Shown one piece after another: positions 3,780 through 64,000 of a stretch of 64,000 nt of DNA; the stretch's first letter is position 1; every line of letters begins with the position of its first letter. A program made the translations under genes and the position numbers. The notes below the pieces were generated by a model. It saw only the letters and a list, made by a program, of their open reading frames with translations, was not told where the DNA came from and did no database searches. This DNA is from Rhizophagus irregularis. Its lineage: Eukaryota; Glomeromycota; Glomeromycetes; Glomerales; Glomeraceae. The stretch is taken from positions 62,001 to 126,000 of the forward strand of contig NC_089446.1 of assembly GCF_026210795.1 (NCBI RefSeq). The letters are read 5' to 3'.

Positions 3780-4080
3780 GTTCGAATTAAACTTAAATAA
3801 CATTCATAATAAGAATTCCATCTTGTATCGCTGGGTCTTATTATTGCATAATATTTTGAGTAAAGTTCTCATTGAATATTTCATAATTTTCCAATAAAAT
3901 ATACATTATTAGGATGATTAAAATAATTAAACAATTTTACAGCATTAGTAAATGCATTTTTCAAAATACTAGATTCTTTAAAAATCTCTCTAACAGCTAA
4001 ATTGCATTGATGTGTAAAGCATGGCAAAAATACATATTGAGGGTATTTGAGATGAAGCTGTCATCTAAATAAAATAAAAA
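3780..4080 (-). pseudogene. hAT transposase, middle catalytic part (fragment)
   Basis: Reading the minus strand from about 4075 down gives FLPCFTHQCNLAVREIFKES, the conserved C-x-H-x-x-NL block of hAT transposases. It is followed by NAFTNAVKLFNYFNHPNN and, after two stops, RPSDTRWNSYYECYLSL, the R-x-x-TRW-S block. These belong between the fragments at 8397-9330 and 2540-3202. Stops and small shifts make it inactive. Confidence 0.7.
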
Positions 4081-33900: not shown

Positions 33901-34113
33901 ACGTTCTAATGCTTGAAGCCCTTCCTCCTTTAGTGATGCCGTTTCTAATGCTTTCTTAAGCTTTGCACGCAACTCAGCATTTTTTTGCCTAAGTTCTTCT
34001 ATCTCAGATTCATGACCCTCGATTACACCATACAGGTATTTTATATATTGCTCTTGTGATTGCAATGTATGTGCAAGCTTTGTAATCTGTGTCTTTAACG
34101 ATGTATCTTCCAT
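30906..34113 (-). pseudogene. Coiled coil-Gag-CCHC-retropepsin polyprotein, frameshifted
   Basis: One minus-strand reading of about 1,070 codons starting at ATG 34113. Its parts are: a coiled coil (34113-33781, QKNAELRAKLKKALE); more helix (33637-33091, NLQNQVNNLNQQI); a Gag capsid-type block (33125-32691, GEDPELWLQEFRQWC, then DDARDWYETHIKG); the second Gag half (32516-32157, NELVRQQFLNGLS); a CCHC knuckle near 31995-31955 (CSSCGKSGHTKSSC); an Asp/Ser run; and a retropepsin (31514-30906) with FDTGSDSSLI and the closing LLGVPWID. Retropepsins mature Gag shells in LTR elements. The pieces lie in shifted frames with about six to eight single-base breaks. Its 5' end overlaps the oppositely directed integrase by 13 bp. 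No LTR or reverse transcriptase is near. Confidence 0.75.
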
Positions 34114-35159
34114 TGCCAGTTCCACAGATTTTTATAGACCCCAATTTTAATAAACAAATCGAACAAAATTATATCCTTCAACAAATCTATTACCATCCAT
34201 GTGGATATTATCGTACTCCTGAAAAACTTTGGGCTAAAGTGCAAGCTGAGGGCCATGATTTTAACATATCTGATATTACAGAGTGGTTGCATAAACAGGC
34301 TATATGGCAAATACACTCACCTGTACCCAAGTATGTTCCACAGGTTTCTTTTAATAAGATCACACGACCAAATATGTATCATCAAGCGGATATCTTATAT
34401 ATGCCCTATGATACTGTAGATAGAAAGCTGTATAAATACTGTTTGAATATTGTAGATGTTGCCAGCCGATATAAAGCTTCAGTACCTCTAGAAGATCGCA
34501 GCTCTGCACGTGTTGCTAAGGCATTTAAAAAGATTTATAGTAAAGCAGACTGCCCGCTTATTTGGCCAAGAGTTTTACAAGTAAATGGGGGATCAGAATT
34601 TAAGGATGAAGTTATCCGATTAATGGATGAAAAAGGTGTACGTATTCGGGTGGGTACTACTCATAAGAGTCAGGCTATTGTTGAACGGTATAATCGAACT
34701 TTAGCAGAAAGGCTATTTAAAATACAGGATGCAAAAGAACTCCTTACAGAAGGTGTGAATACTGCCTGGGTTAAGAACCTTCCTGATATCGTGAATGAGT
34801 TAAACAATTCTAATACTCGATTGCTGGGTATGTCTCCAGTTGAGGCAATCCAGAAAGATCAAGTGTATGCACTACCTTCAAAGATTCGGAATGATAGACC
34901 TGTAGGTGCAGAAGAAATACGTTTACCGGCAGATTCTCTTGTGAGATACTTACTTGATAGCTCAGATTACCGAGGTAGGAGACGTGCAACTGATCCAATA
35001 TGGTCTACTAAAGTTTATACAATTGAATCTTCCACAGTTGTTGATGGGCAGCCGGTTATATATAGGTTATCTGATGGACCTAAAAAAATATTTACTCGAG
35101 AAGAATTATTAGTTGTGCCATCTGATACTATGCTGCCTCCTACTCATATATTATATTAA
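34101..35159 (+). CDS. Polinton-type integrase, middle catalytic Asp changed to Asn
   Basis: The ATG at 34101 is preferred to the GTG at 34089, giving 352 residues. It is a retroviral-type (rve) integrase that would insert the element's linear DNA. With positions counted from 34089, the core has Asp101 (HQADILYMPYD), then VLQVNGGSEF where Asp is expected but Asn166 stands, and Glu199 (SQAIVERYNRTL); the gap of 32 is close to the usual 35. Residues 30-80 hold a helical N-terminal part with HPCGYYRTPEKLW in place of a full HHCC finger. The C-terminus (about 250-350) has the basic beta-rich tail of Maverick integrases. Loss of one metal-binding Asp should abolish catalysis. The frame itself is intact. 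Confidence 0.85.
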   Translation: MYLPLPVPQIFIDPNFNKQIEQNYILQQIYYHPCGYYRTPEKLWAKVQAEGHDFNISDITEWLHKQAIWQIHSPVPKYVPQVSFNKITRPNMYHQADILYMPYDTVDRKLYKYCLNIVDVASRYKASVPLEDRSSARVAKAFKKIYSKADCPLIWPRVLQVNGGSEFKDEVIRLMDEKGVRIRVGTTHKSQAIVERYNRTLAERLFKIQDAKELLTEGVNTAWVKNLPDIVNELNNSNTRLLGMSPVEAIQKDQVYALPSKIRNDRPVGAEEIRLPADSLVRYLLDSSDYRGRRRATDPIWSTKVYTIESSTVVDGQPVIYRLSDGPKKIFTREELLVVPSDTMLPPTHILY

Positions 35160-38100
35160 TTTTCAAGTTGTGGTATCCTATAGTCACCATGTGCATACAT
35201 TGTGATATTATCTTGTGCAATCCATTTTTTATCATCCATAGGAGATAACCCAACCTTCGACATTTCTATAACATTTATGGCATGTCTGTCAGATCGGATT
35301 GCTCTAAAGGTAACTGTATCATTATGTTTAGGATCGAAGAGTGCCTTATTATACCGCTCGTGGTGGAATTCTTTTTTAACTACCTTTGAGGGAACACCCT
35401 TAGCCTTACGGATACCATGTTTTGGATTAGTAGTTTCATCTCCTACCTTAAGAATGGAATATATTTTGGGACGAAGGCCAATAAATTCTGCTATAACTGC
35501 TCCATTACATTCATCCTTAAATTTTCCTGGGATTTTCATGTTTATGTCAGCCTTGTCACCTAATGCTTCTCGTACAGGGTGATCCTTAGGATAATCACTA
35601 AAGTCGAATTGGTCTGCCATATCTATAAGGTCTGCATTAATATCCTCAGTTTGGATTTGTACGAGGAGTGAGTCTGTGTCTGTATAACATAACTGGATTT
35701 TTTCACCATAACGTACCTTAAGAGTATCATAGTAGAATTGATACATACAGAGCTTTGAGAGGTCAAGTACACTCATACCCACATATGTTGGACGGTTAAG
35801 CATTACCTCCACTTTTCGTCGGTGGATTGCAACAAGATTTTCTGAGAATATTTTACGACCTTTAAATGCAGGATCTGAGGTAAGCTTTTTATATTTCTTG
35901 GGATGGGTTTGGGGTTGTACTACTGAGACACGTACACGTTTCCTGAGATTTTCCATAGTTTTACCAAATACACTATTATTCATGAGTTTATAGAAGTCCT
36001 TCTCAAAATCGTTTTTAGTCTTAGCACGTTCGGCGGTGTTAAATTCTATGTATGGTTTCATCCATGGAGCCTGCTTGAATTTTATAGCTTCATAGACCTT
36101 CTTGATTACTAAGCCTTGGCTAACATAATACTGGAGATTTCTGTAATGAACTACATATTCATCCTTATCGAATAGGTTGGGAATGAGCTTATCCGTGGGT
36201 GTGTATCGTTGTCCTGAGCGTGCTATTATTTCCTGCTGCTTTTTACTAAACCATTCCTTCTTAACCTTCATTCGTTCTGGTGCAAGGGGGTAATCTGTAT
36301 GTTGTGAATGAAGGGCTTGGGGGTACTCCAGTTTGACTTTGAGAATATATCCCTCAGAAGAATCGTCTGGTATTTCGTTATTTTCTATTTGCCTTTGAAT
36401 GTTAGATAACTCGTTCTCCTCCTTTACCCAGTGAAAGTTACCTGTAGGTAAGTATTGCAACATGGCCCATCCATATAGGTTATTTGCATCTAAGTATAGG
36501 ATAGATGACTTGGGCTTTTCTGCGGTCCATTTACCTTCTCCCATATCTGGGTTATTTGCACGAGCATATCGTTTACTTACCATAGAGATTCCACCACGTA
36601 ATCCTTCGTTCTACCATCATGTACATATCCTGGTCAGTTATAAGATCCAATCTTCGCCCTGTCATGAAGAATAGTGCATCCCATGCAAAGCCTGGTGTTG
36701 AATAATACCAGAGAGGATCTAACCCATATTTTTTCAAGGCCATTTCTCGGAAATTCTGAAATATATCGGCTAGTAGAAGGACGTCAGTTTTGAGATAAAT
36801 GTCATGATAATCTTGCATTGTTTTACATCCTGCTTTTTCCCATACATACTGTGCATATTCGTATTCTTTATCACTAATGTGGGTTTCATTAAGTTTGCTA
36901 TAGAATGCTCCTTTAGGTGGTAAACTAGTTTTCTCGAACTTTTTCCAGTCATCCATGTATTCATACGGGTAGACACCTTTCTTAAGATAAATCTCGAGTA
37001 ATTCAGGTGGTATTTGACTTCGTGTTATTTTAAAGTTTTCGGGATGTGCAAAGCATCTACCTGCATCAATTCGCCATAAGTGTTGTGGATTACTACATTC
37101 TTGTGCTCTACATTTTTCTGCGCCTAGGTTGGATGCTAATTTGTCGAGACTTGATTTCATGAATTGTAAGCTGTCTATAAATCGGAGGGAACCTAACTTG
37201 AATGCCATATACTTTTCCATGTTATAAGGGATAGGATCAATATCATCCTCACATTCCATTGCACCAATTCCTTGCATAATTATATGTCCATCATATCCTG
37301 ATAAATTGTGAAAGATTACTGGGATATGCATTTCACGAGGTTTTATGGATAAGTCAAGATTACATCCTCTATGTGCTGCACCTCGATACCTTCCTGTAAT
37401 ATGGCAGTGGTCTCTTACTTTATTTCCATCTAAGGGGTTATGACATATCCAGCAGTTTATTGCATTATCATAACTTGCTTGCTCTTGGGTTGTTAACGGC
37501 ATCATTTCCATTGGGTTTCTGAATTCATTACGGATTGCTTCAGCCTCATTTAGCATTTCGATTACAAATTTTTGTGCTGCATTTTCTCCTGTAAATATCT
37601 TCTGTGATTCACTTACACCATCATATCTTACCTTAATATACGAGTATGAGCAGGGGATTTGCTCTTGTACTTTCTTGGTTTTCTTATCTTTGTCTTCATC
37701 TGTGGGTGGTATGTCCATTACTAGGGCTTCAAAGTCTGCAACAAAGTAATATGGGACTTGCATGCGGCGTTTCCAGTTTTTGAATTCATATATATCATTT
37801 CCTTTCTTTACTGATGGCATTCGGTCTGCTTGTGGGGTTTTCTTTAATCCTCGACATATTGCTACATGTTTGTCATGAATTTCTTGTTGATGCGTGAAGT
37901 GGGAGATACACCATCGGCAGACAAATGTTGCATGTCCATCTTTTGTACGTTTATTTACTAAACGGCTCATATTCTTAATCCAGCAATAGTGCTGCTTTTC
38001 CCCGTTACTGATAAGTACTAAATCTATTATTTTACGGCTCTCTGCATCATCCCTATCGGTAACATATATTGGACATAGGCGGTGGTCACGCCATTCACAG

Positions 38101-39052
38101 ATGCAGAGGGCAATAGTTGAGTTCTGTCGCTCAAATCTTCTTAGAATTACCTCATCAGCTTGTACTGGAAATTCGATACCTTCAAAGTTTAACTCATTTA
38201 CATACTCCTTATACTTGGAAATTCTTTCTGCGTTCTTTTCTACTGGATGTAATGCTGCTAGGATTGCCCACTGGAAGCATTTGTCATCATCATTAGCTGG
38301 ATTTACTACTCCCTTTTTCGTGGCAAGATCTTTTGGGAGTGGTATATGTCCTGCTCCTGTGGGTGGTTGGAATTGCGAGATTTCTATAAATATTTTTTCT
38401 ACACGATAGAATTCCCAACCTGATCCGTAATTTACATAGTCTTCTACTTTCTGCATGATTCTTGCTAATGCAAAGTTAAATGTACCATTAATATCTGTTG
38501 ATGGTAGGATTGGCATATTGCGAGTTTTAAATGGTATGTTATATCTGTAGATATACTCTACTCCATCATCTTCACTAAAGTTACCATCTCTGAATAATCC
38601 TCAAGGTAAGAATCTAAACGTCTTATTGTGGCAAATATTCCAATTCTTACTTTTATTGATCCCAATCGATTTCTTTCATCCCGAAGAATATTCTGGATTG
38701 TTTGACTGTGTGCTGTAAGAAATGAAGCATAGTCATGCTCTCCAGGTGTTCCTATAGCAATATCAGCCGTAAAGTTTGAGTCTGTTAACTCCTTTCCTAT
38801 ACGTACCTGATCACGACGTTCAAAGACTACCTCATAATGTGGGTCTGGGTCAATTTGCATCATGCGGGTTATCTCTTCATTGGTTACCGCCGCTTGTGCT
38901 TCACGGATTTGGCAGATCTCATCCTCATATTCCTGCAATTTTGCATTTGAGCGGGGATATGGGATGGACTTGACAGGTACCTGCTTGAGTTCAGCTAGAA
39001 CTGATCGGATGACTTGTCTGTGTTGGGCACTTCTTGCTTGATGTGTTGACAT
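35156..39052 (-). pseudogene. Protein-primed-type family B DNA polymerase, two frameshifts
   Basis: Replicative polymerase of the element, about 1,290 codons in three frames: 39052-38558, then 38516-36573, then 36583-35156. The second piece has KCFQWAILAALH (the N-terminal block common in Polinton polymerases), a CCHC finger (C200, C203, H217, C221), exonuclease I (FVADFEAL), an endonuclease VII-like CWIC then DHCH then C385, exonuclease II (NLSGYDG) and III (YLKTDVLLLAD). The third has motif A (YLDANNLYG), B (KLMNNSVFGKT) and C (YTDTDS). Shifts lie near 38580-38592 and, inside the conserved GLRGGIS block, near 36600-36612. All active-site residues are present, so decay is recent or the shifts are errors. 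Shared leader upstream. Confidence 0.9.
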
Positions 39053-57555: not shown

Positions 57556-58751
57556 TGGCCGGTGAGATCCCCCAATTCCCTCTGTCATCAATTTACAGAG
57601 TTGCCACATCGAACGGGCATTCCCATGGTCGAACGAACGAATAAACGAACGAACGAACAAGCAGTCAAACGAACAAACACGTGATCAAAACACAATTATC
57701 GAACAACAACATCAGCAAACAATATGCAACAACATTCTTGGTTCACAAAATAAATAGCGTTAGTAATATAAAACGTTGAACGGTATAAAATAAAATTAAC
57801 TTCTCTGAATTTTCCTCAAATTATATCCACTTTTACCTTTAATTTCAAACTTCGATAGCTCTCGCTACGAATTATCACTTTTCAAAACATATATTTAATT
57901 CTTCTTAAATTTTCATTAATTAAAATTAATTAATCAAACATTAATTAAAGTTTAGGGCGAACCTATTACCTTTAATTAATATTAAACTTCATTAATAATT
58001 AAAAAATAAAACTTATATTTTATTGAGTTCTGTGGATGCGAACTATGGAATTACCTTGAATTCCGTTCTCTATTTATACAATTTTTATACTACTTTCTAT
58101 TCTATCTATATACTATCTTTTATATTATCTTTGAACTATCTTTCTAATATACTATCTATATTTTAAATACGCTATCTTTTAATATGCTATCGTTTAATAT
58201 GCTATCTTTTAATATGCTATGCTATCTTTTTATATATGTTCTTTTTAATATGTTATCTTTTATGTTCCATCTTTATACTATCTTTTTATATTATCTTTTA
58301 TATTATTTTGTGTTTTTAAATCTTTCTGACATTATTCTATATGTTCTTTCAATTCATTTTATGTGTTTTGCTTATAATCTATCTTTTGTGGCTTATAATT
58401 ATTCTTTCTAATCGTTCTTATTGTTAAAGATTGCTAAGCCGCAATTGATCGACTCTAATTATCCTATTGGTTCTTTGTTAACTACTTGATGAATATTACA
58501 TTATGTAGATCATTACTCTTCCTAAATGTTTATCAACATTATAGATATCGCTTAGTTTATATATTACTAAAATATTGAGTTTATAAAAATTATGGGATTC
58601 CCATTACTCCTCCTAAATGTTTATCCTTTTCGGCTAATTATTTATCCATCTACGCCAATCCATAATTAATTTGTTCGTTCTTAACATTTGGCAATTACGT
58701 TTGGTAGTTGAATTTTATCATCTTTTCATGCTTGATATTTGACCGTTTACA
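57556..58751 (-). repeat. 3' LTR (left border tentative)
   Basis: On the element's strand it starts TGTAAACGGTCAAATATC just after the polypurine tract. It contains caataaaata (about 58020) as a possible poly(A) signal and a cgaacgaacgaa repeat (57633-57660). The inner border at 58751 is well supported; the outer border at 57556 (tggccggtgag, the complement of a CA end) is a guess because the other LTR is not in the window. Confidence 0.55.
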
Positions 58752-58754
58752 TTA

Positions 58755-58768
58755 TCCCCCTCTTCACT
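58755..58768 (-). other. Polypurine tract
   Basis: AGTGAAGAGGGGGA on the element's strand, three bases before the LTR's TG. It primes plus-strand DNA synthesis in LTR elements. Its place, between the integrase end and the LTR, is as expected. Confidence 0.75.
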
Positions 58769-58827: not shown

Positions 58828-60051
58828 TTAATCGAATCGAACTCGGGTCTTATCGAATACCTCTTTTCCTTTAATTACTATTTTTGGTGTAAATCTCCCT
58901 CGATCACAAAATTTCTTTAACCATTCTCCATTTTGCGGAGTCTTTAGTATTCTTCCATCCAATTCTTTGAGTTTATATGCCCCATTTCCAAATTCTTCGT
59001 GAATTAAATATGGTCCTTTCCATTTGTTCTGTAATTTTCCAGACCATTGTTTTTCTCTTCACGCTTCGTATAATAATACTTTTTCTCCTATTTCAAATTT
59101 AGGTTTCCTAATTCCTCTTTTGTCATGTTGTTGTTTTTGTTTTTCTTGAGCTTCTTCCACGTTCTCTTTCATTTTTCTTCTTATTACTGGTAGCTCCTCA
59201 ATTAGTATTTTTACTCTATCAGCTAATGTTATCTTGTTTTCATCTTTGTCTAATGGTAATTTCGCTCTCCTTCCGTACGTTGCATAAAAAGGTTTAATTC
59301 TTGTTGACGATTGCTTCTTTGTTCTGTATGCAAATAATACGGATGGTATATGTTTATCCCAGTTTTCTTCCCCTAATTTGGCTAATCCTTCGCATAAAGT
59401 TTTATTGAATCTTTCGACCAAACCATTTGTTTGTGGCCTATATGGTGTACTTAATCTATGATTTATCCCACATCTTTCTACTAATTCTTCCATCATTTTA
59501 TTGTTAAAGTGAGTCCCTCTATCGCTAATTATTTTCTTTGGACATCCAAGTCTACAAATTATGTCTCTCCAAATAAATTCTACCACTTCTTTTGCTGTAG
59601 CTTCTTTTAGCTATGCACTCGGCCATTTTGTAAAATAATCCATTGCTACTACAATATACTTATTTCCCTTTTCTGTCTCTTTTAATGGTCCAACTATATC
59701 TATTCCAATCATCTCGAATGGTTCATTTATCTTTATTGGCATTAATTCGTTCTTTCCTCTTGGTTTTCCTCTCATTTGACAATTCCAACACGTTTTTACA
59801 TATTCTTCTACATCTTCTTTCATATTTTTCCACCAATAATTTTCTTTTATTCTATCTAATGTCGCTTCTACTCCAAAATGTCCTGATAATTCGTTATCAT
59901 GCATCATGTACATCAATCCTTCGTATTCATAATCCCTGATTACTCTAAATTTGTTTTGTCCTTTTACTCTATATAGAATTCCCTCTTTCAATTCATATTT
60001 ATTCTCCTTTTCGATATTGTCAATTATTCTCTTGTAATTATCTTCTTCCAT
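58828..60051 (-). pseudogene. Ty3-type integrase with two in-frame stops
   Basis: Inserts the element's cDNA. It begins at ATG 60051. The HHCC finger is His51, His58, Cys88, Cys91. The core shows IGIDIVGPL (Asp118), then in the next frame piece IISDRGTHF (Asp) and GLVERFNKTL (Glu), 35 residues apart: an intact DD35E. A GPY/F-type C-terminal part follows (KWKGPYLIHEEFGNGAYKL) and ends at the TAA at 58828. Breaks are an in-frame TAG at 59611-59609, right after KWPSA, and a TGA at 59061-59059. The region between the pol stop and this ATG is open in another frame, so the gene may once have been joined to pol. Confidence 0.85.
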
Positions 60052-60111
60052 AATATCTCTTTAATTGATTTTGCTTCTAAATTCGTTATTTTCGTTATGT
60101 GTTCTGTATTT

Positions 60112-62193
60112 TTAGTTCTGTGTTCTTCTCCATTTCTCCACCTCTTTAAATACTTTTCTCCAACTACTATTGTCATTTTTAACTTTTACTCGACTGTATC
60201 TTTTAGTATCTTTGTACACGCCCTGATTTTCTTCAAACATTCTAACCATGTCCAAATATTCATCCTTCTTTAATGTTGGATATGACGATTTTTCCGTTTT
60301 CTTTGTTTCTCTTCCAATGTAATTTTTCCAACATACATCACTATCCTTTTCTAAAAATATCACTATTGATTTGTCTATTGTTTCTTTCAGTCTGAATATT
60401 TCTTTTTCCATCTCATGATTTCCATGTGGAGTAATTAATCCTCTGTCAAAACTTTTCGTCTTTTGATAATAATATTCACAATATGGTGATTTGTCTAAAA
60501 TTATTATATCTGTATCTTCGTCATATTCTAGCATTCTTCTGTTTATTTGTTCCACTACTTCTTTTCTGAATTTCCATTCTGTCTCCATCTTTGATTCATA
60601 AAATTCATCTTTATCTTTTCTTCTTCTCTTATAAGTGTTGAATCTTACTTTTAATCTTTGCTTTTCCCATTCTTCAATTAAATTTTGTACTATACTTGTC
60701 TTTCCTAATCCGTCTACTCCGTCGATTATTACTATTTCTGGTTGATCCTCTACTATCTTTAATAACCTACTTAATGCGTCAGCGTTCGTATTTTCTTTTC
60801 CTGATCTATGTATTACTTCAAAATTATATTGCTGTAATTCCATTACCCATCTTGCTCTTTTTCCTTTCGGTAACTTTGCATTCATTAATCCTTTTAATGC
60901 ACTGTGATCTGTTATTATTTTAAATTTTCTATCGATCAAATATTTATGAAAATGTTGAACTCCCCAAACTATTCCTAAACATTCCAATTCTGTTATTGGA
61001 TAATTCTCTTCTGCTGGTAATAAACTTCTACTTGCATATGCTATTACTACTTCTTTTCCTTTTTCATCTTTTTGACTTAATACTGCACCTAATCCTTTTC
61101 CTGATGCATCTGTTATTAATAAAAATTCTTTCTTCCAATCTGGATGTCGCAATATTGGATATTGTATTAACTTTTCTTTTAATTTTTCAAACGCTTCTTG
61201 TTGCTCTCTTCCCCAAATGAAAGGTATTCCCTTCTTTCTTAAATCACTTATTGGTCTTGCTATCTTTGAAAAATTCTTCACGAATTTTCTGTAATATGAA
61301 CAAAGTCCTAAAAATGATCTTACTTCTTTCACCGTTGTTGGTGCCTTCATTTCTTTTATCTTTTCTATCTTTTTATCGTCTGGCCTTAATCCATCATTTC
61401 CTACTATATGTCCTAAAAATTCTATATTTCTTTCCAAAAATCTACATTTCTTTAATTTTATTATTAAATTATTCTCCTGTAACTTCTTTAATACTTTTTC
61501 CACATGTTCCATATGGTCTTCTAAATTTTCTGAATATATCATAATATCGTCAATATATACTACTACAAAATCGTTTATGTATTCTTCTAATATTTCATCC
61601 ATTAATCTTTGAAATGTTGCTGGTGCGTTCGTTAAACCGAATGGCATTACATTATACTCAAATAATCCCTTTGAACATACAAATGCTGTTTTTTCTTTGT
61701 CTTCTTCTTTCATTTCTACTTGATTAAATCCTGCTGCTAAATCTATGCTTGAAAACCATTTTGCTTTTCTATATTTGTCTAACAATTCATCCATTCTTGG
61801 TAAAGGAAAACTATCCATTATAGTTATCTTGTTTAACTTTCTGTAATCAATACAGAATCTATATTTTCCCGTTTTCTTTCCTGCTAATGTAACCGGTGAA
61901 CTCCACGGACTTTTTGATCTTCTTATCTTTCCTTGTCTTAATAATTTATCTACTTCTTCGCTTATAAATTTTGCCTTTTCGTCTGTTTCCTTGTATCTTC
62001 TTTGTTTTATCGGTTCTACTCCATCTTTTATTTTTATCTCATGTTGCGCCGCTTTTGTTCTCCCTTCTATTTCTTTGTCATATTCCAAAATATCTTGGTA
62101 TTCTAATAATAATTTTACCATATTTTCCCAAATTGGTTCTTCTACTTTCCCTATACTTAATTTTTGCATAAATTTTTCACTTGGTTCGAGCAT
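60112..62193 (-). CDS. pol: Reverse transcriptase-RNase H-thymidylate kinase-like fusion
   Basis: One unbroken 693-codon frame. Reverse transcriptase: residues about 60-250, with FSSIDLAAGF (Asp151) and YIDD (213-216). RNase H: 355-476, with Asp362, Glu404, Asp429 and Asp472 (NTNADALSRL). Then, with no stop or junction repeat, residues 485-693 form a P-loop nucleotide kinase: IVIIDGVDGLGKTS (492-500 is the P-loop), ILDKSPYCEYYYQ (567-579, where thymidylate kinases have DRY-S-AYQ), a Lys/Arg-rich lid with NYIGRETKKTEKSSYP (624-639), and a closing helix. About 209 residues is the normal length of a thymidylate kinase, so the whole domain seems present. It would phosphorylate dTMP or a deoxynucleoside next to the polymerase. 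The substrate and activity are inferred; DK instead of DR is unusual. Confidence 0.9.
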   Translation of the reverse strand: MLEPSEKFMQKLSIGKVEEPIWENMVKLLLEYQDILEYDKEIEGRTKAAQHEIKIKDGVEPIKQRRYKETDEKAKFISEEVDKLLRQGKIRRSKSPWSSPVTLAGKKTGKYRFCIDYRKLNKITIMDSFPLPRMDELLDKYRKAKWFSSIDLAAGFNQVEMKEEDKEKTAFVCSKGLFEYNVMPFGLTNAPATFQRLMDEILEEYINDFVVVYIDDIMIYSENLEDHMEHVEKVLKKLQENNLIIKLKKCRFLERNIEFLGHIVGNDGLRPDDKKIEKIKEMKAPTTVKEVRSFLGLCSYYRKFVKNFSKIARPISDLRKKGIPFIWGREQQEAFEKLKEKLIQYPILRHPDWKKEFLLITDASGKGLGAVLSQKDEKGKEVVIAYASRSLLPAEENYPITELECLGIVWGVQHFHKYLIDRKFKIITDHSALKGLMNAKLPKGKRARWVMELQQYNFEVIHRSGKENTNADALSRLLKIVEDQPEIVIIDGVDGLGKTSIVQNLIEEWEKQRLKVRFNTYKRRRKDKDEFYESKMETEWKFRKEVVEQINRRMLEYDEDTDIIILDKSPYCEYYYQKTKSFDRGLITPHGNHEMEKEIFRLKETIDKSIVIFLEKDSDVCWKNYIGRETKKTEKSSYPTLKKDEYLDMVRMFEENQGVYKDTKRYSRVKVKNDNSSWRKVFKEVEKWRRTQN

Positions 62194-62228
62194 CTTTTCC
62201 GTCTCTCTCTCTTCAGAGCCAAGACTCT

Positions 62229-62732
62229 CTATTTAAAATTCTGGTGCATTTTGAATACCTCTCCCTCATCGTTACTTTCATATTCTTCATCGTCCTCACT
62301 CTCTTCGCTTTCATATATTGCTTCTCTTTCATATCCTACTGGGATCGTTATTATTTCTCCCTGTTCTTCCATCCTTAAGGTATGATCTTCAAAATTTATT
62401 TTTGCATTATACAACTTCCATATGTCATTTCCCAAAATTAGATCCTCTTCTTCTGAATCGATTACTTCGACTTCTTTTAGTATTTTTAATTCATCTTTGT
62501 ATCTTAAAGTTATATTTGCCTTTCCTAACGCTGCTATCTTTTGCCCATTTGCTATTGTACATCTAAATTTACTTTTTCCAAATATAGGTATATTCAATCT
62601 TCTTCTTAATTTATCTGTTATCACACTTACTGCTGCTCCGGTATCTATTATTACGCTCACTAATTGATCTTCAACTTCTAATTCTGTTCTCATTGCTGTA
62701 GTTTTCTTCTCTTCATTTTTCATAGTTCCCAC
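62229..62732 (-). CDS. Retropepsin-type protease
   Basis: Aspartic protease that would cut the Gag and Pol polyproteins. The active site VIIDTGAAVSVI has Asp30 (from the GTG at 62732, used only to mark the frame; the first ATG is at 62723). The closing motif is DLILGNDIW, and the C-terminal third is acidic. Its frame is the same as Gag's, separated by one TGA and four codons, and no good start codon context is seen. It is therefore probably made by stop readthrough as Gag-Pro. The pol frame begins 35 bases after its TAG and is -1 relative to it. Confidence 0.85.
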   Translation of the reverse strand: MGTMKNEEKKTTAMRTELEVEDQLVSVIIDTGAAVSVITDKLRRRLNIPIFGKSKFRCTIANGQKIAALGKANITLRYKDELKILKEVEVIDSEEEDLILGNDIWKLYNAKINFEDHTLRMEEQGEIITIPVGYEREAIYESEESEDDEEYESNDEGEVFKMHQNFK

Positions 62733-62738
62733 CGAGTG

Positions 62739-62744
62739 TAGTCA
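62739..62744 (-). promoter_or_regulatory. Candidate readthrough stop TGA-CTA between Gag and protease
   Basis: On the element's strand: AAA AAT TGA CTA CAC. TGA followed by CTA is the best known leaky stop context in eukaryotes and several viruses. Both neighbouring frames are in phase, so reading the TGA as an amino acid gives a continuous Gag-Pro. Confidence 0.6.
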
Positions 62745-64000
62745 ATTTTTTTCGTTTATACTTCTTGGTCTATATGTTGCTTCTCTCAATTGTTTATGAT
62801 ACTTAGGATTCCCATTTATTAATTGTCCATATGTTATATTCGCTCTACAATTTTTCACATCCCCTACAATATCATAAGGTGGTATTCCGTCAGTTAATCT
62901 TGGTCCATACTCCCTGGGCTTCATTGGTCCTCCTGCTTCTCTCCATTTTCTTAGTCCTTCCGTTGGGTCATAATAAGCTTGCCTTTTATTACTCCATCTC
63001 ATTCCTTTTGGTCCTATTGGTCTATCCCCATTTTGTTCAGTTCGTTCGGGTATATAATTTGGTGCTGTCATACCAGTTGGTATTTCTCTATCATCCATTT
63101 TATTTCCTGCTTCTCTTAATTCTTCCTGTAAATTTCCCTCTTCATTATTATTTTTATATCCCACTATTGGACTCGTCCTTCTTGATTGTCTTCTTCCTTT
63201 TACTGCGTCATCCTTTACGTATAACTCATTATGATAATTTAATTCTCTATCTTCATAATCATCGTAATAGCCTTGTGCATAATATACTTCGTTATATTGT
63301 GGATCCTCGTATCCATATTCATCATAATAATATTCTTCTTGATCATCATATTCATCCATCATATTTACTCTCGCATTCCTTCCTTCGGGACAATTATTCT
63401 TGTAATGCCCCATTCTATTACATCCGAAACACGTTGGTACCCTATTCTGGTTTGATTGATAACTATTCCTATTACCATTATTTAATCTCCTTCCCATATT
63501 TGGTTGATACCTATCCCTATTATCGTTGTTTAATCTTCTCTCTATATTTGCTACCATTCTTTCTAATTTACTAATTTTCGCCTTCTCTTTAAACATTTCA
63601 GCTAATTCGTCCTCATAATTTTCGTTCAATGGTTTTGCGAACATATTTTGTCTATTGTCATCTTTTCCGATATCTATTTTCGTACTAATTGGTGTTCCTA
63701 TTGCTTTTCTTAAAAATTCGTCTTTTGCACCTTCTTCTCTTACTGCTATTTCTATCGCCCCATTTAAGTTCGCTGGATTCTGTCTTCTAACTTGATATCC
63801 TATTGTTGGTTCTAATCCTTCGATGTAAAAATCTACTTGATATTCATCTGCTAATGCATGTCCTCTAGTTGCTATTCTTAATATTTGTCTAAATCTCCTT
63901 GTATATTCTTCAACGCTTTCATCTGTTCCTTGTCGAGTTTTTCTTAATTCTAGCATTTTCTTTCTTCTAACATCCTCTCTGGTAAATCTTCTTTTTATTC
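62742..64000 (-). CDS. gag: Gag, 5' end beyond the window
   Basis: Forms the particle shell and binds the RNA. The frame is open to the window edge (before the first ATG at 63956 it reads RRFTREDVRRKK), so the start is outside. From 63956: capsid C-terminal-like block ESVEEYTRRFRQILRIATRG and DFYIEGLEP (residues 13-50), an Arg/Asn-rich linker, one CCHC knuckle CFGCNRMGHYKNNC (Cys176, Cys179, His184, Cys189), an acidic Tyr/Asp/Glu-rich part (200-245) and a Pro/Gly-rich tail. The stop is TGA at 62744-62742. Confidence 0.88.
   Translation of the reverse strand, partial: IKRRFTREDVRRKKMLELRKTRQGTDESVEEYTRRFRQILRIATRGHALADEYQVDFYIEGLEPTIGYQVRRQNPANLNGAIEIAVREEGAKDEFLRKAIGTPISTKIDIGKDDNRQNMFAKPLNENYEDELAEMFKEKAKISKLERMVANIERRLNNDNRDRYQPNMGRRLNNGNRNSYQSNQNRVPTCFGCNRMGHYKNNCPEGRNARVNMMDEYDDQEEYYYDEYGYEDPQYNEVYYAQGYYDDYEDRELNYHNELYVKDDAVKGRRQSRRTSPIVGYKNNNEEGNLQEELREAGNKMDDREIPTGMTAPNYIPERTEQNGDRPIGPKGMRWSNKRQAYYDPTEGLRKWREAGGPMKPREYGPRLTDGIPPYDIVGDVKNCRANITYGQLINGNPKYHKQLREATYRPRSINEKN

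Follow-up and report, generated by a model that had tools for sequence, protein, structure and literature searches.

The window analysed here, a 64,000-nucleotide stretch of the Rhizophagus irregularis genome (contig NC_089446.1, positions 62,001 to 126,000), contains a Ty3/Gypsy long terminal repeat (LTR) retrotransposon whose reverse transcriptase (RT) and RNase H are fused to a thymidylate-kinase-like domain. The pol frame runs from stop to stop over 706 codons (60112-62232, reverse strand). Profile searches placed RT (PF00078, 4e-45) and RNase H (PF17917, 1.2e-37) at 60763-62232 (-), followed in the same frame, with zero stops between, by a P-loop domain ~209 residues long at 60115-60741 (-). 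This C-terminal part of the frame was delimited from profiles, genome matches, predicted fold and motifs. The fusion, the GVDGLGKT P-loop and the domain size had been proposed in a first-pass annotation; all three were borne out, and the kinase observation is confirmed as real and stronger than first noted. The domain is probably an accessory nucleoside monophosphate kinase of thymidylate kinase type, belonging to a Ty3/Gypsy clade of Rhizophagus and its relatives, which would be packaged with RT and feed cDNA synthesis.

A search of the genome (146.7 Mb, 32 contigs) with the kinase domain returned at least 151 matches, some copies yielding two. Family A, that of the window copy, accounts for at least 56 matches that span 224 or more residues at an identity of 93% or higher; among the family A matches listed, 53 have no stop in the kinase and 41 have a frame of at least 699 amino acids. 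Other families were roughly separated by identity (B, ~82-85%; C, ~57-65%; D, ~52-56%), with a few matches in between. The kinase domain is present in at least four element families. The first-pass annotation had considered a single chimeric copy beside kinase-free sisters; the number of matches, their spread over families and the purifying selection described below speak against this.

The arrangement of the domain was followed at 30 loci of family A and 30 of family D, chosen as top matches to the kinase query and so biased toward intact kinases. At all 30 family A loci the kinase lies in the RNase H frame, with a stop before the integrase. At all 30 family D loci the RT-RNase H frame closes first and a new frame runs from the kinase into the integrase. 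This second frame begins MGPKIIIICGVDG in locus L034 and in the homologous protein P0086, and the H2C2 motif was seen in it at 27 of the 30 loci. Kinase and integrase are joined in P0076 and P0086, and a predicted protein of R. clarus, P0081, unites RNase H, kinase and H2C2, integrase included. In all these cases the kinase keeps its position between RNase H and integrase, and the open reading frame (ORF) boundary shifts before or after it.

Within the pol frame, the RNase H motif NADALSRL occupies residues 483-490 (470-477 if numbering starts at the first Met, residue 14). The P-loop GVDGLGKT follows at residues 505-512 (60697-60720 (-), motif alignment). In hhalign comparisons, FNTYKRRR after strand 2 (60619-60642 (-); KRRR, residues 535-538) lies opposite the REPG region of E. 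coli Tmk, and DKSPYCEYYYQ (residues 580-590; 60463-60495 (-)) opposite its DRHDLSTQAYQ. A basic segment, NYIGRETKK (60298-60324 (-), motif alignment), is a possible lid.

These motifs are strongly kept. Of the 60 loci in families A and D, 59 retained the P-loop pattern GxDxxGK[TS]. It was present in 34/34 rows of a 38-row alignment composed of the window copy and 37 of 66 proteins, hand-picked with several altered P-loops left out. A recount on all 124 homologous proteins gave 82 of 92 complete P-loops, and of the ten misfits P0098 and P0109 look like fragments or misaligned sequences. The DK of the acceptor site occurs at 60/60 loci, and its K in 103 of the 104 proteins having that column.

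Assignment to a kinase type was clearer for the family than for the window copy. Against Pfam Thymidylate_kin (PF02223), the 706-residue window frame scored 18.5 bits, with a gathering score of 27. Three members exceeded 27 bits singly (P0040, 32.7; P0076, 30.2; P0010, 28.9), and others fell below it (P0024, 26.6; P0070, 25.5; P0124, 25.4; P0090, 21.9; P0082, 19.1; P0081, 18.6; P0086, 16.8); for P0041 the profile was not among the listed matches. Altogether Thymidylate_kin matched 26 of the 38 members, versus 5 of 38 for Pfam dNK (PF01712; E ≤ 1e-3, best 1.2e-4). The latter stayed under its own gathering score of 27 bits (P0124, 18.6; P0070, 17) and gave no match to the window copy at E ≤ 1.

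PHROG, Pfam across the family and hhalign indicate a thymidylate kinase, NCBIfam less clearly; the longest and strongest PHROG match is PHROG_761, thymidylate kinase. The predicted fold (predicted local distance difference test score 89) is consistent with that of thymidylate kinases, and deoxynucleoside kinase structures tie with them as matches. Profiles and fold together provide the match to nucleotide kinases on which the earlier proposal depended. Identity to solved thymidylate kinases is low (9-17%), and database labels of the homologues vary between thymidylate kinase, hypothetical protein and, in one case, phosphodiesterase.

Two results qualify the thymidylate kinase assignment. When the isolated window domain was the query, ATPase_2, AAA_14, NACHT and others, all weak, outranked Thymidylate_kin. 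In addition, the acceptor motif DR of PF02223 is replaced by DK, aligned by hhalign opposite the DRH of E. coli Tmk, and we therefore call the domain thymidylate-kinase-like rather than a proven thymidylate kinase member. On its sequence, the window copy taken alone is not clearly a thymidylate kinase, and the name rests on the family.

The kinase is under purifying selection. The pooled ratio of nonsynonymous to synonymous substitution rates (dN/dS) was 0.053 for 29 family A copies and 0.138 for 29 family D copies, compared with 0.042 for RT-RNase H (18 open family A copies) and 0.090 for integrase (20 open family D copies). These values exclude L030 and L065; copies with stops were removed from the RT-RNase H (11 of 29) and integrase (9 of 29) estimates. 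Choosing loci by their kinase match favours the kinase value; RT-RNase H, which was not selected for, gave a similar one. Constraint on the kinase is about as strict as on the core enzymes and somewhat looser in family D.

Family B (L032, L068) looks composite. Its RT is closer to family C (76.9%) than to family A (67.6%), the linker before the P-loop is of the C type, and the integrase is 81.5% like C and ~58% like A. From the P-loop on, its kinase is 90, 98, 85 and 63% identical to A in successive 50-column windows, versus 57, 76, 62 and 42% to C. Family B seems to be a mosaic in which the kinase module was swapped in frame and the reading frame kept open.

The kinase is not universal among the Ty3 elements of this genome. 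Among 150 integrase H2C2 matches listed, in which family D integrases are absent, a same-strand kinase match lay no more than 3 kb upstream of 91, and 59 lacked one; the pairing used 146 kinase places from the 151 matches, second fragments being skipped. Profile search found no kinase in L071, L072 or L073. L074, 97.5% like L071, is likewise kinase-free, with RNase H, a short ORF and then integrase. In trees, families A-E were separated from L072 and L073 with full support. The branches that decide the place of the kinase-free family E had bootstrap values of 34-51, so that gain and loss of the kinase are indistinguishable.

Several smaller features were seen around the junction. L034 holds ~230 bp between the RNase H stop and the kinase that are missing from L035. 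Each joint carries AAAAATGG, a pattern expected of deletion between direct repeats; RNase H motif distances suggest that most family D loci resemble L034. An ORF of ~50 amino acids precedes the integrase after the kinase in family C (L033, ~3843-3985, minus strand) and after RNase H in family E (L074, 961-1230). The two ORFs are alike, and both overlap the integrase ATG at their end, an arrangement like that of termination-reinitiation. At that spot L032 of family B has a different ORF of ~118 amino acids. L070 (G000:C17:2806000-2811500) has a kinase and an open integrase frame beside a cysteine-rich ORF, with no RT match within 5.5 kb; it is perhaps a non-autonomous or rearranged element retaining kinase and integrase.

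The best protein match that carries a name is from R. irregularis (96%). Named hosts of homologues are R. irregularis, R. clarus, R. diaphanus and Glomus cerebriforme, all members of the Glomerales. Two distant members from JGI data, P0090 and P0124, carry a NUDIX domain ahead of the kinase (2.4e-5 and 1.8e-8, both above cut-off), and their linker before the P-loop aligns with the linkers of kinases such as P0015 and P0073. These features suggest that the element took its kinase from the rear half of a NUDIX-kinase gene, or that the transfer went the other way. The kinase and the NUDIX-kinase fusion may share an ancestor, or the kinase may have been captured from such a fusion; P0090 and P0124 could themselves be element-borne. 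No NUDIX-kinase gene was detected in this genome, as 0 of 105 P0090 matches reach its NUDIX half, and the sole match starting at residue 114 (contig C17) is L070, an element with kinase and integrase.

As candidate donors of the kinase, host genes and viruses were considered. Host gene matches to Thymidylate_kin lie on contigs C24 and C13 (four are listed; C6:4454486 adjoins an element kinase), and to dNK on C28. For a phage or giant-virus donor, a tblastn search of a phage collection with three family members gave either no match or weak local ones (in 20 records, lowest E 0.02, and in 1 record, E 0.3), and three scans of viral_contigs showed no relative.

The most likely function is that of a deoxynucleoside monophosphate (dNMP) kinase, presumably acting on thymidine monophosphate (dTMP), that would serve cDNA synthesis in the manner of retroelement dUTPase. 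The kinase forms the C-terminal part of the RT-RNase H protein in the window family and the N-terminal part of the integrase protein in family D; as part of pol it would be packaged with RT and integrase into the virus-like particle. The packaged enzyme would phosphorylate dTMP, or a close dNMP, to the diphosphate, which host nucleoside diphosphate kinase would turn into a deoxynucleoside triphosphate (dNTP) for use by RT. Such a supply may raise thymidine triphosphate (dTTP) for cDNA synthesis and support it under low host pools, as is thought for retroviral and retrotransposon dUTPase.

It is unlikely that the domain is instead a deoxynucleoside kinase of nucleoside salvage. Deoxycytidine and deoxyguanosine kinases and the deoxyadenosine kinases of Giardia and Mycoplasma score level with thymidylate kinases as structures, viral library matches are mixed, and an S follows D-K as in the ERS motif of deoxynucleoside kinases. 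However, the P-loop GVDGxGK is of the thymidylate kinase type, differing from the deoxynucleoside kinase form, and the basic KRRR lies opposite the arginine of the Tmk REPG in hhalign, where deoxynucleoside kinases have a glutamate; the Pfam counts also favour Thymidylate_kin. Phosphorylation of another target, such as nucleic-acid ends, a modified nucleotide or RNA, for instance in processing of primer or cDNA ends, has a smaller probability still. The longest and strongest profile match remains PHROG_761, and the KTI12 matches that favour this alternative (18 of 38 members; above cut-off for P0024, P0010 and P0040) span ~85 residues from the P-loop. Its other indications are PHROG_505 polynucleotide kinase (0.0016 for P0090, 0.00026 for P0124) and a polynucleotide kinase annotation beneath some of the weak phage tblastn matches.

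We regard it as quite improbable that the fold is non-catalytic and works in RT or integrase as a spacer or a binding part. The fusion partner of the domain, RT in one family and integrase in the other, would fit this role, as would the altered P-loops of some collected proteins, but P-loop and acceptor-site residues are kept at 59-60 of the 60 loci and dN/dS is low. Gene debris or an assembly chimera is barely conceivable: kinase-free sister elements do exist, but dozens of open copies occur on many contigs, the domain is also present in other species and in environmental sequences, and purifying selection is strong. A chimera or assembly artefact was rejected on the abundance of genome matches and the consistent 30/30 arrangement in families A and D.

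The window element has a complete outline of 11.6 kb, with the domain order gag, protease, RT, RNase H, integrase of Ty3/Gypsy elements, two LTRs, a target duplication, a candidate primer-binding site and a polypurine tract. Comparison of the LTR pair placed the 3′ LTR at 57563-58751 (-); its partner lies outside the window, at 67966-69154 if the numbering of the window is continued (L066 3966-5154). Each LTR is 1189 bp long (TG...CA), 1188 of 1189 bases are identical, and CCGG adjoins each outer end as a 4-bp target duplication. The candidate primer-binding site begins TGG, 2 bases inside the 5′ LTR, and a purine-rich tract, read directly, adjoins the 3′ LTR (58752-58765 (-)). Because the LTRs differ by one mismatch, a recent insertion is suggested.

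Upstream of RT, profile searches identified an aspartyl protease frame (62232-62741 (-); PF13975, 6.8e-09) and gag (62745-64000 (-), the frame running past the window to 66347; Retrotrans_gag, with a weak CCHC knuckle). Downstream of the kinase, the integrase is a separate frame with two in-frame stops. One stop separates the H2C2 zinc finger part (59614-60060 (-); PF17921, 4.4e-22) from the rve core (59062-59610 (-); PF00665, 3.9e-07, slightly below cut-off; PF13683, 1.1e-06), and another follows the core, after which the frame resumes to 58831. These stops (58831-60060) coexist with near-identical LTRs: either the damage came afterwards or young copies spread in trans. Within the DNA examined, the integrase frame reaches at least 400 amino acids at 16 of 30 family A loci. 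An Rfam scan of L066 1-5300 gave no match. Elsewhere in the window (34086-38600), frames resembling, by eye and with no search run, a B-family DNA polymerase and an rve-type integrase lie close together, in a Maverick/Polinton-like manner.

Accessory enzymes of Gypsy elements are already known, and the nucleotide kinase appears to be the new part. Earlier reports describe dUTPase domains in retroviruses and in LTR retrotransposons, including fungal PosPlaTy3 and others, bdelloid Juno, Vesta and TelKA, and planarian Burro, at varying places in pol and with an assumed role in permitting viral replication in non-dividing cells (PMC2864245, PMC5408684, PMC6431247); in some vertebrate retroviruses dUTPase lies between RT and integrase (PMC5408684). 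Orchid Gypsy elements are reported to carry an AlkB N6-methyladenosine demethylase ORF (PMC9289625). The kinase resembles dUTPase as an accessory enzyme of nucleotide metabolism in or near pol whose position varies between families, and AlkB as a captured enzyme fixed in a Gypsy lineage, although AlkB is an RNA demethylase in an additional ORF. Unlike dUTPase, which hydrolyses dUTP, a kinase would act by ATP-dependent phosphorylation; the two folds also differ.

The element kinase shares with Tmk/CDC8 (PF02223, PHROG_761) a profile match across most of the domain, the GxDGxGK P-loop and the predicted fold, and is set apart by DK for DR, by being joined to the RNase H or integrase of a retrotransposon and by its low identity. 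P0090 and P0124 belong to the same kinase family, with an alignable linker before the P-loop, but have NUDIX in front and no RT or integrase in the protein. No description of a nucleotide kinase in a retrotransposon was found in the open-access literature, the only literature searched, and to our knowledge dUTPase is the only known pol-encoded enzyme of nucleotide metabolism in LTR elements, which agrees with the dUTPase reports cited above.

The finding bears on annotation, given the inconsistent database names of the homologues. Reverse transcription is known to be limited by the supply of nucleotides, and a kinase that strong selection maintains between RNase H and integrase would be a further route beside dUTPase. 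Such a kinase makes it testable whether an element boosts its own local dNTP supply. There is about an even chance that the pol kinase, co-packaged with RT and integrase, is a second, independent solution to the problem of dTTP supply and quality, favoured by selection in arbuscular mycorrhizal fungi, whose hyphae are coenocytic and divide slowly, and passed between element families as a module.
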